Shown here in pieces: positions 8,093 to 55,887 of a stretch of 64,000 nucleotides of DNA. The DNA comes from Allocatelliglobosispora scoriae (GTDB lineage Bacteria; Actinomycetota; Actinomycetes; Mycobacteriales; Micromonosporaceae): assembly GCF_014204945.1 (NCBI RefSeq), contig NZ_JACHMN010000002.1:1688503-1752502 (forward strand), given 5' to 3'. The first letter of the stretch is position 1; every line of letters begins with the position of its first letter. The notes beneath the pieces are model-generated. The model saw nothing but the letters and a program-made list of their open reading frames with translations. It made no database searches and had not been told where the DNA came from. The position numbers and the translations under genes are program-made.

Positions 8093-8177
8093 CCGCCAAG
8101 ATCGCCGCAACTCTTCAAGAGTTGGTCCTAACGGGGTTGTAGGACCAACTCTTGAAGAGTTGCGGCGATCTTGGCGG
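8093..8177. terminator. 38-bp perfect inverted repeat, hairpin between trp genes
   Basis: Positions 8093-8130 are the exact reverse complement of 8140-8177, with a 9-nt loop. Each arm contains the odd-centred palindrome CAACTCTTCAAGAGTTG, so each arm could also fold on itself. The stem begins directly after the stop of the Trp-associated membrane protein and separates it from the trpC promoter, both genes reading leftwards. The core recurs in the hairpin at 44327-44399. Confidence 0.85.
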
Positions 8178-10125: not shown

Positions 10126-10467
10126 TCAGGTCAGAGGTAGGTGGTCGTTGAAGCAGGTCCGCTCGCCGGTGTGGCAGGCGGCGCCGACCTGGTCCACGCT
10201 GACCAGCAGGGCGTCGCCGTCGCAGTCCAGCGCGACGGACTTCACGTGCTGGGCGTGCCCCGACGTCTCGCCCTTGACCCAGTATTCGCCACGGCTGCGC
10301 GACCAGTAGGTCGCCCTGCCCGTGCTCAGTGTCCGCGCCAGCGCCTCGTCGTCCATCCACGCCAGCATCAGCACCTCACCGGTGTCGTGCTGCCGGACGA
10401 TGGCCGCGACGAGACCGTGCTCGTCCCGCTTCAGCTTCTCGGCGATCGTGGGATCTAGCTCAACCAT
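10126..10467 (-). CDS. hisI: Phosphoribosyl-AMP cyclohydrolase
   Basis: HisI opens the purine ring of phosphoribosyl-AMP, the third step of histidine synthesis. The protein has 113 residues, the usual length of the single-domain enzyme. The blocks [42 protein letters not shown] and [10 protein letters not shown] carry the metal-binding Asp and Cys residues. Its start overlaps the HIT gene by 13 nt and it ends 14 nt before trpE. It therefore links a histidine gene to the tryptophan operon. Confidence 0.96.
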
Positions 10468-10880
10468 GACCCGATTCTCCCTCGGATGCGGTCGGCGTAG
10501 TCGGCGGCCTCCGCGCTGTCCGCGTAGGTGGTGCGCGGCCAGAAGAACCCCCGCAGCCCGTCGCCCTTGCGCCGGGGCACCACGTGTACGTGCAGGTGAG
10601 CAACACTCTGGCTGATCCTGTTGTTCATCGCCACGAAGGTGCCGCCCGCGTCGAGACCCTGCTCGACCGCACCGGCGATCGCCTGGACCCGGGTGAAGAA
10701 CGGGCCTAGCCGATCTGCCGGCAGGTCGGTGAGGGTGATCACGTGCTGCCTCGGCACGACGAGCACGTGCCCCTTGAACACCGGCCGCGTATCCAGGAAC
10801 GCCACGGCGACGTCATCGGCGTGGACGACGATGGCCGGCGTACTCCCGGCGATCACGGCACAGAACAGGCACTCGGTCAC
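10455..10880 (-). CDS. HIT family nucleotide hydrolase/transferase
   Basis: The 141-residue protein begins with CLFCAVIAG and carries the histidine triad HLHVHVVPR (HxHxH) with the conserved upstream [13 protein letters not shown] proteins cleave or transfer nucleotide phosphates (Hint, Fhit or related); the substrate cannot be inferred. GTG 10880 follows a TAGGCT -10-like box (10894-10889) by 8 nt with no Shine-Dalgarno, suggesting a near-leaderless transcript that continues into hisI and trpE. Confidence 0.9.
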
Positions 10881-11032
10881 GGTGATCGAGCCTATCCCCG
10901 GTCGGCGCTCGTCACCGGCACGCCGGACTGGCTCGCCGGTTGTCCGGTCACGCCCCCTTCAGCTTCCTAGGGTGCTAGGTGAGTGGCCTGTGGGCGGGGC
11001 ATTCCGGTCCCGCTCTCGTCGGCGCGGAGCGG

Positions 11033-11413
11033 CTTGATCGCGTTGTTTCCCGGAAACAGGGCGGTCGCGCGCCCTCGCAGGGGATTGTTTCCCGGAAACA
11101 ACGCGATCAAGCGCCCGCGACAGCGCCTAGCAAGCACCCAGCAAGCATGCTGTTGGCGTGCGTCGCTCGCGGCGACCAGCCCGCTTGATCGCGTTGTTTC
11201 CCGGAAGTAAGGCGGTCGCGCACCCCCGCAGGGGACTGTTTCCGGGAAACAACGCGATCAAGCGCCCGCGACAGCGCCTAGCAAGCACCCAGCAAGCATG
11301 CTGTTGGCGTGCGTCGCTCGCGGCGACCAGCCCGCTTGATCGCGTTGTTTCCCGGAAGTAAGGCGGTCGCGCACCCCCGCAGGGGACTGTTTCCCGGAAA
11401 CAACGCGATCAAG
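11033..11413. repeat. 151-bp tandem repeat, three hairpin units
   Basis: Units start at 11033, 11184 and 11335, a period of exactly 151 bp. Each begins with a 79-bp stem-loop (11033-11111, 11184-11262, 11335-11413). The 25-nt arms start with CTTGATCGCGTTG and end in the odd palindrome GTTTCCCGGAAAC. The first two units are followed by a nearly identical 72-bp spacer that holds AGCATGCT; after the third the spacer diverges. Arm mismatches are limited to the palindrome centre or edge. The array lies between divergent genes, so simple termination does not explain it. Confidence 0.9.
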
Positions 11414-11572
11414 CCCCGTCGACAGCGCCCGACAAGCACCCAGCGCCCCAGCAAGTGCCAGCGCCCAGCCATGCGGGCGCCGTCTCACGCAGGCGCCGTG
11501 TCGCGCCGGCGCAGCCTCACGCGGGCGCCGGCTCACGCAGGCGGGCGGGAGGTGTCGGGAAAGGGCGGTGTG

Positions 11573-11646: not shown

Positions 11647-12354
11647 ATGATTGAGGTCCACGACCTCGTGGTCGACCGAGGCAAGCGCACCGTGCTGCCC
11701 GGTCTGACCTGCTCGATGCCGTCCGGCGGCCTCACGGGCCTGCTCGGTCCGAGCGGCAGCGGCAAGACCACCCTGATGCGCGCCATCGTCGGCGTGCAGG
11801 TGGTGAAGAGCGGCACGGTCACGGTGCTCGGCAAATCGGCCGGCGACAAGGAGCTCCGCTCCAAGATCGGCTACCTGACGCAGGCGCCGAGCGTCTACGC
11901 CGACCTCACCGTCCGGGAGAACGCCCGCTTCTTCGGCAGCCTCTACGGCCTCGACGCGGGCAAGGCCGATGAGGCGGTCCGCAATGTCGGGCTGGAGCAG
12001 CAGGCGCACCAGCTCGTCGGCGACCTCTCCGGCGGGCAGCGCAGCCGGGCCTCGCTGGCGTGCGCGATCGTCGGCGACCCGAAGGTGCTGATCCTGGACG
12101 AGCCGACGGTCGGACAGGACCCGGTGCTGCGCGACGAGCTGTGGCACCAGTTCCGGGCGCTGGCGGCGGGTGGCGCGACGGTCGTCGTCTCCAGCCACGT
12201 CATGGACGAGGCGAATCGGTGCGACCGGCTGCTGCTGATCCGCGAGGGCAGGCTGATCGCGGACGACACCCCGGCCGCGGTGAAGGCCTCCGCCGGGACG
12301 GACGACCTTGACGAGGCGTTTCTTACCTTGATCAAGCGCGGGGAGTCGGCATGA
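11647..12354 (+). CDS. ABC transporter ATP-binding protein (ABC-2 exporter type)
   Basis: The 235-residue ATPase has Walker A GPSGSGKTT at about 35-43, Q-loop LTQAPSVY, signature LSGGQRSR, Walker B VLILDEPTVGQDP and the H-loop VVVSSHVMDEANRCDR. This set and the VGQDP block match DrrA-like ATPases that pair with one ABC-2 permease to export drugs or lipids. The start ATG 11647 has GGGAGG 7 nt upstream. It is followed by its permease and a TetR regulator; the cargo is unknown. Confidence 0.92.
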   Translation: MIEVHDLVVDRGKRTVLPGLTCSMPSGGLTGLLGPSGSGKTTLMRAIVGVQVVKSGTVTVLGKSAGDKELRSKIGYLTQAPSVYADLTVRENARFFGSLYGLDAGKADEAVRNVGLEQQAHQLVGDLSGGQRSRASLACAIVGDPKVLILDEPTVGQDPVLRDELWHQFRALAAGGATVVVSSHVMDEANRCDRLLLIREGRLIADDTPAAVKASAGTDDLDEAFLTLIKRGESA

Positions 12355-14948: not shown

Positions 14949-15014
14949 GTCACGTTTTGCAGCAAAGCGTGGCTATTTCGCTGTGCGATGCCACGCTTTG
15001 CTGCAAAACGTGAC
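14949..15014. terminator. 25-bp perfect inverted repeat between convergent genes
   Basis: Positions 14949-14973 pair exactly with 14990-15014 around a 16-nt loop. The arm contains TTTGCAGCAAA, an odd-centred palindrome. The stem starts 7 nt after the S4 stop and touches the stop of the convergent ABC exporter gene, so it can serve both strands. Confidence 0.85.
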
Positions 15015-21397: not shown

Positions 21398-21510
21398 ATT
21401 TTAATGCTGGACACGCCGGCAAATCTGCAATAAAAGTCAGGATCGACTGGGAGCCCCTCGGTCGATCCTGACTTTTATTGCACCTCGTGCGGCGTGTCCA
21501 GCATTAAAAT
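21398..21510. terminator. Nested double hairpin between convergent genes
   Basis: An outer pair of 21-nt arms (21398-21418 with 21490-21510) encloses an inner pair of 22-nt arms (21426-21447 with 21461-21482, loop 13 nt). All arms are perfect complements. It begins 5 nt after the ligase stop and ends 9 nt before the stop of the convergent regulator, fitting a bidirectional terminator, though much longer than one needs. Confidence 0.85.
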
Positions 21511-24994: not shown

Positions 24995-25425
24995 GCCAGC
25001 CTCCTAAGATCGATCGGCGTATCTATTGACCGCAATCTTAAGAAGAGATCACCTTGCCGTCAGGGTGCGAATCTGCACCTGTTGCGGGCTTTCCTGGCAC
25101 GACCGCACCTTGACCGCCGCCGCGCTGCGAGCGCGGGGCGCGGCTGCGGGTGCGGCGAGCGGCTGCGGGCGCGGGGCGCGACTACGAGCGCGAGGCGCGC
25201 CTACGAGAGCGAGGCGCGCCTACGAGCGCGGCTGCGGCTGCGAGCGCGGCTGCGCCGAAGATCACGCCTTCTTCGGGGAAAATGGTGTGATCACGCGCCT
25301 TGATCACACCATTTTCCCCGAAGAAGGCGTGATCTTGCACGCGCGCAGCGATCCAGCAGGCGTGCGGAACGCACGGCGAGAACACACGTCAAGCGGGGCA
25401 AGCGGGGCAGGCGGGTGCGAGCGCG
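24995..25425. other. Gene-free stretch with GC-rich repeats and a hairpin
   Basis: No gene is supported. It contains the upstream region of the M23 gene and a low-complexity GC tract at about 25118-25257 with repeats such as GAGGCGCGCCTACGAG (25192 and 25211). A 36-bp inverted repeat at 25258-25336 and a short spacer before the hisF stop complete it. Confidence 0.65.
25258..25336. terminator. 36-bp perfect inverted repeat downstream of hisF
   Basis: Positions 25258-25293 pair exactly with 25301-25336 around a 7-nt loop. It lies about 90 bp after the hisF stop and before the M23 gene, both reading leftwards. The loop is flanked by TGATCA on both sides. Confidence 0.8.
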
Positions 25426-26187: not shown

Positions 26188-26269
26188 ACTGGTGAACCTA
26201 CCGTGGCGGGCCGCTGGAGCGCTGTCGGCGTGGGTGCGCGGTCCGCTTCCTGAGAAGCATGACCGCTCA

Positions 26270-26343
26270 TGATCGCGTTAAACCCGGAAAGAAGCCCCTC
26301 ACCATGCAGCGGAAGGGCTTCTTTCCGGGTTTCTACGCGATCA
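26270..26343. repeat. Imperfect long hairpin upstream of hisF
   Basis: TGATCGCGTT at 26270 and the matching end near 26343 bound an inverted repeat of about 28 bp with one bulge; the inner part AAACCCGGAAAGAAGCCC is complementary to its partner. The loop is about 18 nt. It lies 36 bp after the stop of the transporter gene and 83 bp upstream of the hisF start, both genes reading leftwards. Confidence 0.75.
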
Positions 26344-26379
26344 CGCCGAGCGCCGAGCGGCGAGCGCCGCAGAGCGGCG

Positions 26380-28445: not shown

Positions 28446-28762
28446 GCACTTCTCCGATCCCAGGCGATCGTCATCAGCACCGGCAGCGCCATGACGGTCA
28501 AGATGGTGAGCAGCACGGCGAGCGCCGTGGTCTGCACGAGAAACCAGATCACCAGCAGCAGCAGCACGACCACGATCGCGGTCACGGCGAGCTGTCCGCG
28601 GCTGTGCCGGCGCAGGCGGCCGACGCGGCTGGGGCGGAGGGTCAGCTTGCGGCGTACCCGCCGGATTGTGACCCGTCGGGCCTCGGCCCGGTCGATCTTG
28701 CGGCGGCGCTTGGCCTCGGCCGCCTCGCGCTCGGCGCGGCGCAGCGCGCGCTCCTTGCTCAC
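28442..28762 (-). CDS. Small basic membrane protein in the his operon
   Basis: The 106-residue protein begins with a strongly basic, Arg-rich stretch of about 55 residues ([20 protein letters not shown], then [20 protein letters not shown]). Two close hydrophobic segments, about 55-75 and 77-95, follow. I do not recognise a family. It starts with GTG 28762 directly after the duplicated dispersed element and overlaps the priA start by 4 nt. This placement suggests coupling with the histidine genes. A role in membrane tethering is only a guess. Confidence 0.65.
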
Positions 28763-28767
28763 CGCGT

Positions 28768-28885
28768 CACCCTTCGCTCGCGCTTGCGGGGCTCCGCTGC
28801 GCTCCACTCCTCGCGCCTCACAGCGTCATCCTTCGCTCGCGCTTGCGGGGCTCCGCTGCGCTCCACTCCTCGCGCCTCACAGCGT
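28768..28885 (-). repeat. Dispersed element, 59-bp tandem duplication
   Basis: Units at 28768-28826 and 28827-28885 are identical except for one base. Read on the reverse strand, each carries GGCGCGAGGAGTGGAGCGCA and GCGGAGCCCCGCAAGCGCG, then GAAGG and a start-like triplet. ACGCTGTGA (or ACGCGGTGA) occurs before, between and after the units. It supplies the hisH stop, a mini-ORF ATGACGCTGTGA, and the GTG of the 106-residue gene. Confidence 0.8.
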
Positions 28886-44326: not shown

Positions 44327-44399
44327 GTGACGCAACTCTTCAAGAGTTGGTGCTGAGGCCTGGCGGCCTGAAGCACCAACTCTTGAAGAGTTGCGTCAC
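44327..44399. terminator. 28-bp perfect hairpin sharing a core with the trp hairpin
   Basis: Positions 44327-44354 pair exactly with 44372-44399 around a 17-nt GC-rich loop. The arm holds CAACTCTTCAAGAGTTG, the same 17-mer as the hairpin at 8093-8177. It separates the 44412-45044 gene (ends 12 bp to the right) from the DUF167 gene, both reading leftwards. Confidence 0.85.
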
Positions 44400-55815: not shown

Positions 55816-55887
55816 TCGCGTTGATCAAGGGAAGACTCACCATGTCGGGTGTCCGATTCGCGGCGAGTCTTCCCTTGATCAACGCGA
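55816..55887. repeat. 23-bp perfect hairpin inside the mur operon
   Basis: Positions 55816-55838 pair exactly with 55865-55887, with a 26-nt loop. Each arm has the palindrome TTGATCAA. It lies 7 bp after the mraY stop and 20 bp before the murD start, both reading leftwards. A terminator or processing site here would separate mraY from murD. Confidence 0.85.

Follow-up and report, generated by a model that had tools for sequence, protein, structure and literature searches.

What purpose could three nearly identical, very stable stem-loops serve when they stand side by side between two genes that are read away from each other? We addressed this question for a 64,000-nucleotide stretch of the chromosome of Allocatelliglobosispora scoriae (here called the window). 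The three units of the array begin at positions 11032, 11183, and 11334, so that the exact period of 151 bp given in a preliminary description of this DNA holds. Each unit carries an 81-bp stem-loop (11032 to 11112, 11183 to 11263, and 11334 to 11414; no strand is assigned to these features or to the hairpins and spacers below), with minimum free energies of -52.6, -55.1, and -48.9 kcal/mol for units 1, 2, and 3 and z scores of -8.2, -8.9, and -7.4 against shuffled sequences. The stem-loop had been described as a 79-bp element that is the same in all three units; it is indeed present in every unit, but the hairpins are near-identical rather than identical, with 7 mismatches per 81 positions between units 1 and 2, 6 between units 1 and 3, and 1 between units 2 and 3. 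A covariance model matched the three copies with 73.5 bits (11031 to 11113), 72.7 to 73.1 bits, and 66.5 to 68.1 bits, respectively. Spacer 1 (11113 to 11182) and spacer 2 (11264 to 11333), previously reported as a shared stretch of 72 bp, agree letter for letter across the 73 bases compared, and homology fades 3' of the third hairpin (74% across the unit).

The array is one copy of the hairpin plus its flank, present three times in tandem. The preliminary description had proposed recent duplication or ongoing conversion, and local duplication is the part that our data bear out, since the two spacers match in full and a single base separates hairpin 2 from hairpin 3, whereas copies dispersed over the genome are only about 75 to 90% alike. 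The divergent setting was also described correctly: a HIT-domain gene lies on the left (10455 to 10880, minus strand) and an ABC ATPase gene on the right (11647 to 12354, plus strand), the latter in the company of genes for an ABC-2 permease and a TetR protein. The HIT gene stands directly behind hisI and trpE (10126 to 10880). A short way to the right of the array, a GC-rich 16-bp tandem repeat with the unit GGCGCCGTCTCACGCA occupies 11476 to 11543 in 4.2 copies, and two more tandem repeats are found in the window at 25124 to 25249 (periods of 19/38 bp) and 28758 to 28885 (59 bp).

The hairpin is a member of a dispersed family in this 9.15-Mb genome of the Micromonosporaceae. Matches to its arm number 6 in the 64-kb window, where 0.16 are expected from shuffles, and a solitary fourth member lies in a co-directional gap at 26266 to 26347 (68.7 bits). 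A further hairpin at 25255 to 25339 (53 bits) has equal length and the same GATC tips with another stem sequence. In the whole genome, there are at least 75 strong copies among the best 150 strand-wise matches of the covariance model, and the arm occurs with two or fewer mismatches at 95 forward and 98 reverse sites (control, 0). The core is exactly 75 bp long in 84 of 96 copies examined, and the whole hairpin, of about 83 bp, has the consensus (g)CaTGATCGCGttgtTTCCsGGAAacagtCCCCTC - 11 free bases - GAGGGGcctgtTTCCsGGAAacaaCGCGATCAtG(c). Single copies were present in 4 of 20 random 20-kb regions, and because all 4 fell outside the list of similar copies, the true family must be larger than that list. 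Nothing in the window matched Rfam above the gathering score, and no description of the family turned up in Rfam or in the literature that we searched.

The placement of the copies indicates where the family belongs. The 59 occupied intergenic gaps comprise 32 convergent, 25 co-directional, and 2 divergent ones, and the convergent share far exceeds that among control gaps of 80 bp or more from 464 kb (19 of 159; Fisher P = 5e-10), a sample slightly below its stated size, as roughly the first 5 kb of control region L203 (C2:2250000 onward) consists of N. Insertion of an element lengthens a gap, and this bias was checked: without a size limit the convergent share was only 16% (65 of 396). Genes were called with a home-made finder (a three-periodic Markov model), and single calls may err. 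Of the co-directional copies, about half are 50 bp or less from the upstream stop codon, and the convergent copies frequently have a stop codon within 40 bp. Among copies examined in other genera, 5 are convergent, 10 co-directional, and none divergent, and 2 overlap predicted genes; included here are 3 members of two sister palindrome families. Copies of this repeat occur across the chromosome, mostly behind gene ends and above all in convergent gaps, and it is the divergent location of our array that is atypical.

This bears directly on the proposal, made in the preliminary description, that the array is a special binding array, an insulator, or a recombination hotspot. The array does occupy one of only two divergent gaps found to hold the hairpin (the other, as called by the gene finder, is locus L036), and its copies are nearly identical. 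Nevertheless, its unit is one of at least 75 hairpins scattered over the chromosome at gene ends, and comparable short arrays, mostly with a spacing of about 120 to 220 bp, stand at more than 10 other loci, mostly convergent. Moreover, in the relatives' loci examined, HIT orthologues are not adjacent to hisI, trpE, or the ABC gene pair, which gives no sign of a conserved arrangement. A role specific to this locus is thus unsupported, and we regard it as very improbable. The accompanying remark that a terminator is superfluous between divergent promoters was sound, the divergent position being the exception for this family.

Both the letters and the pairing of the hairpin are constrained. Between loci, the GATCG, TTCC, and GGAA columns are about 90 to 100% conserved, and the 11 loop bases are nearly random (identity of 0.321 versus 0.303 expected). 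The TTCCsGGAA dyads, 42 bp apart, and the GATC tips are conserved beyond the rest of the element. This raises the possibility that the element is a double-dyad binding site on duplex DNA for a nucleoid protein, gyrase, or a chromosome-organizing factor, acting at convergent ends where supercoils build up, as has been proposed for REP/BIME elements; REP sequences bind Pol I, gyrase, and IHF and prefer convergent gaps (PMC1525189). In line with such a site, the complementarity of arms from the same element (2165 of 2688) only slightly exceeds that of arms from different elements (2119 of 2688), in a set of copies selected because they resemble the consensus, a choice that masks compensated changes. 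Clear compensated changes were present among the four random-region copies, and covariation among 60 copies from different loci (0.168 versus 0.124) was above all 500 shuffles. Across genera, the covariation score was 0.628 versus 0.199 for shuffled alignments, 88.9% of cells were paired versus 63.8% after shuffling, and both sides had changed in 33 of 36 pairs. The alignment was fitted to the model with both strands counted and so leans towards structure, but slid controls gave only 34 to 45% paired, and the raw sequences agree with kept pairing. Since covariation within the genome and across genera means that pairing is kept too, we set aside a pure duplex-binding site. Other genera also change the TTCC and GGAA letters while keeping length and pairing, which a fixed site would not allow unless its protein had co-evolved; overall, we consider the duplex-site explanation rather unlikely.

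The relatives of the hairpin show the same combination of turnover and constancy. Besides its own genome, the covariance model found matches in 12 of the 60 Micromonosporaceae genomes that were sampled, which cover about ten other genera, and in one genome from another family of the same order; it found none in 59 other genomes across the phylum. Absences in these runs are soft because the filters were strict. The relatives' hairpins have the same length and tip motif, and their stems differ with pairing kept. An exact-sequence search of 84,980 species genomes, a set that may lack records of the own genome, returned no relatives, and blastn with one copy as the query gave no match in 40 related genomes. 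As both searches were empty outside the own genome, the letters of the stem are replaced faster than the architecture changes. This likeness within a genome and turnover between genera raises the question of a homogenizing force. A bolder reading, which we hold to be less likely than not, is that the Micromonosporaceae harbor a class of gene-end hairpins of about 83 bp that keep their length, GATC tips, and pairing, with a stem that is fairly uniform in each genome but exchanged from genus to genus; this would imply concerted evolution of the whole set, driven either by some means of spreading or by a recognition protein, other than RAYT, that evolves along with the hairpins.

Many copies in one genome, a lineage-specific sequence, and tandem arrays would also be expected of a mobile or once-mobile palindrome, MITE-like or REP-like, that has no host role and is tolerated only behind genes. 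REP/RAYT mobility was rejected, as the Y1 transposase (PF01797) is absent from the own genome and present in five control genomes. A MITE with target duplication was likewise rejected: direct repeats of 4 or more bases are not in excess around 57 copies. A plasmid or viral origin was also rejected, plasmids and viral contigs containing no match to the hairpin. The loops of dispersed copies are unrelated despite their kept stems, and pairing is preserved across genera. We therefore judge a mobile palindrome without host function to be unlikely.

The hairpin family is not the only one of its kind in this genome. An unbiased scan of 464 kb detected several dozen long intergenic palindromes in about seven families, whereas shuffled sequence yielded 1; of the 149 rows in the raw output, about 100 were false and came from an N stretch. 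When 652 kb of DNA from other actinobacteria was scanned in a similar way, 9 were found, versus 2 after shuffling. One family, with the core CAACTCTTSAAGAGTTG, has 658 sites with one or no mismatch (control, 0); in the window it is found at 8107 to 8163 and 44331 to 44395, and its sites often pair up into a longer hairpin behind genes. More long, near-perfect palindromes of several other families lie mostly in convergent gaps, at 1875 to 1973, 1986 to 2035, 14950 to 15013, 21426 to 21482, and 55818 to 55885. Two of these families have relatives in two other genera; for the CAACTCTTSAAGAGTTG family, relatives are present in another genus. In this high-GC bacterium, many gene ends appear to be marked by long repeated palindromes that belong to a few families.

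The position at gene ends, the symmetry, and the pairing together fit a bidirectional terminator or a 3'-end hairpin. A canonical Rho-independent terminator was rejected, as a T-run (5 or more T in 12 nt) follows only 2 of 132 hairpin ends; because no T-run follows, a candidate terminator would be of the I-shaped type. Such terminators without poly-U, about 50 bp or less from the stop codon, have been described in mycobacteria, and their presence in Streptomyces has been proposed (PMC12288462, PMC8914203), although termination independent of U is itself under dispute (references 135 and 137 of PMC12288462). Transcription from either side would produce a highly stable RNA hairpin lacking a U-tract; this hairpin may stop RNA polymerase or set the 3' end of the transcript, and one symmetric element could in this way serve both convergent genes. 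The predicted role of the family is thus probably that of a bidirectional terminator lacking a U-tract. Besides the missing T-run and the dispute over U-independence, two points stand against it: the conservation of GATCG, TTCC, and GGAA exceeds the needs of an RNA hairpin, and the window array stands where no terminator is needed. On the transcribed strand, G-U mismatches did not significantly outnumber A-C mismatches (18 versus 14; P = 0.6). The array itself may have arisen by unequal recombination and would at most shield the two divergent units against stray transcription. Taken as a whole, the explanation that a dispersed gene-end palindrome of about 83 bp, serving as a U-less two-way terminator or 3'-end hairpin, was amplified in tandem at this locus is one on which we are evenly divided. 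If two-way stopping without a U-tract is true, it would bear directly on the dispute over U-independent termination in actinobacteria and would provide a source of compact bidirectional terminators.

Among known systems, MITEs are likewise short, present in many copies, and bounded by inverted termini, but the hairpin lacks a target-site duplication, and no parent element was identified among the transposases sought (Y1). Stem-loop sequence families of bacterial genomes, including uptake-signal terminators, are also intergenic and repeated with a common secondary structure, and some are thought to be terminators (PMC2267715); a term search of that paper returned no mention of Streptomyces or Actinobacteria. 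The I-shaped terminators of high-GC actinobacteria share with our family a stable hairpin shortly 3' of stop codons and the lack of poly-U, the window array in its divergent gap standing apart; they differ in that they are not described as a single repeated sequence family, and for our hairpin the stop function is predicted. In comparison with the REP/BIME elements of enterobacteria and Pseudomonas, the hairpin, at about 83 bp with two internal dyads, is longer than the 21 to 65 bases of REP (PMC1525189), and its genome lacks the Y1 transposase (RAYT/TnpA-REP). It is, like them, a multicopy intergenic palindrome that occurs in clusters and prefers convergent ends (PMC1525189), and it is in this placement that the family resembles REP/BIME.
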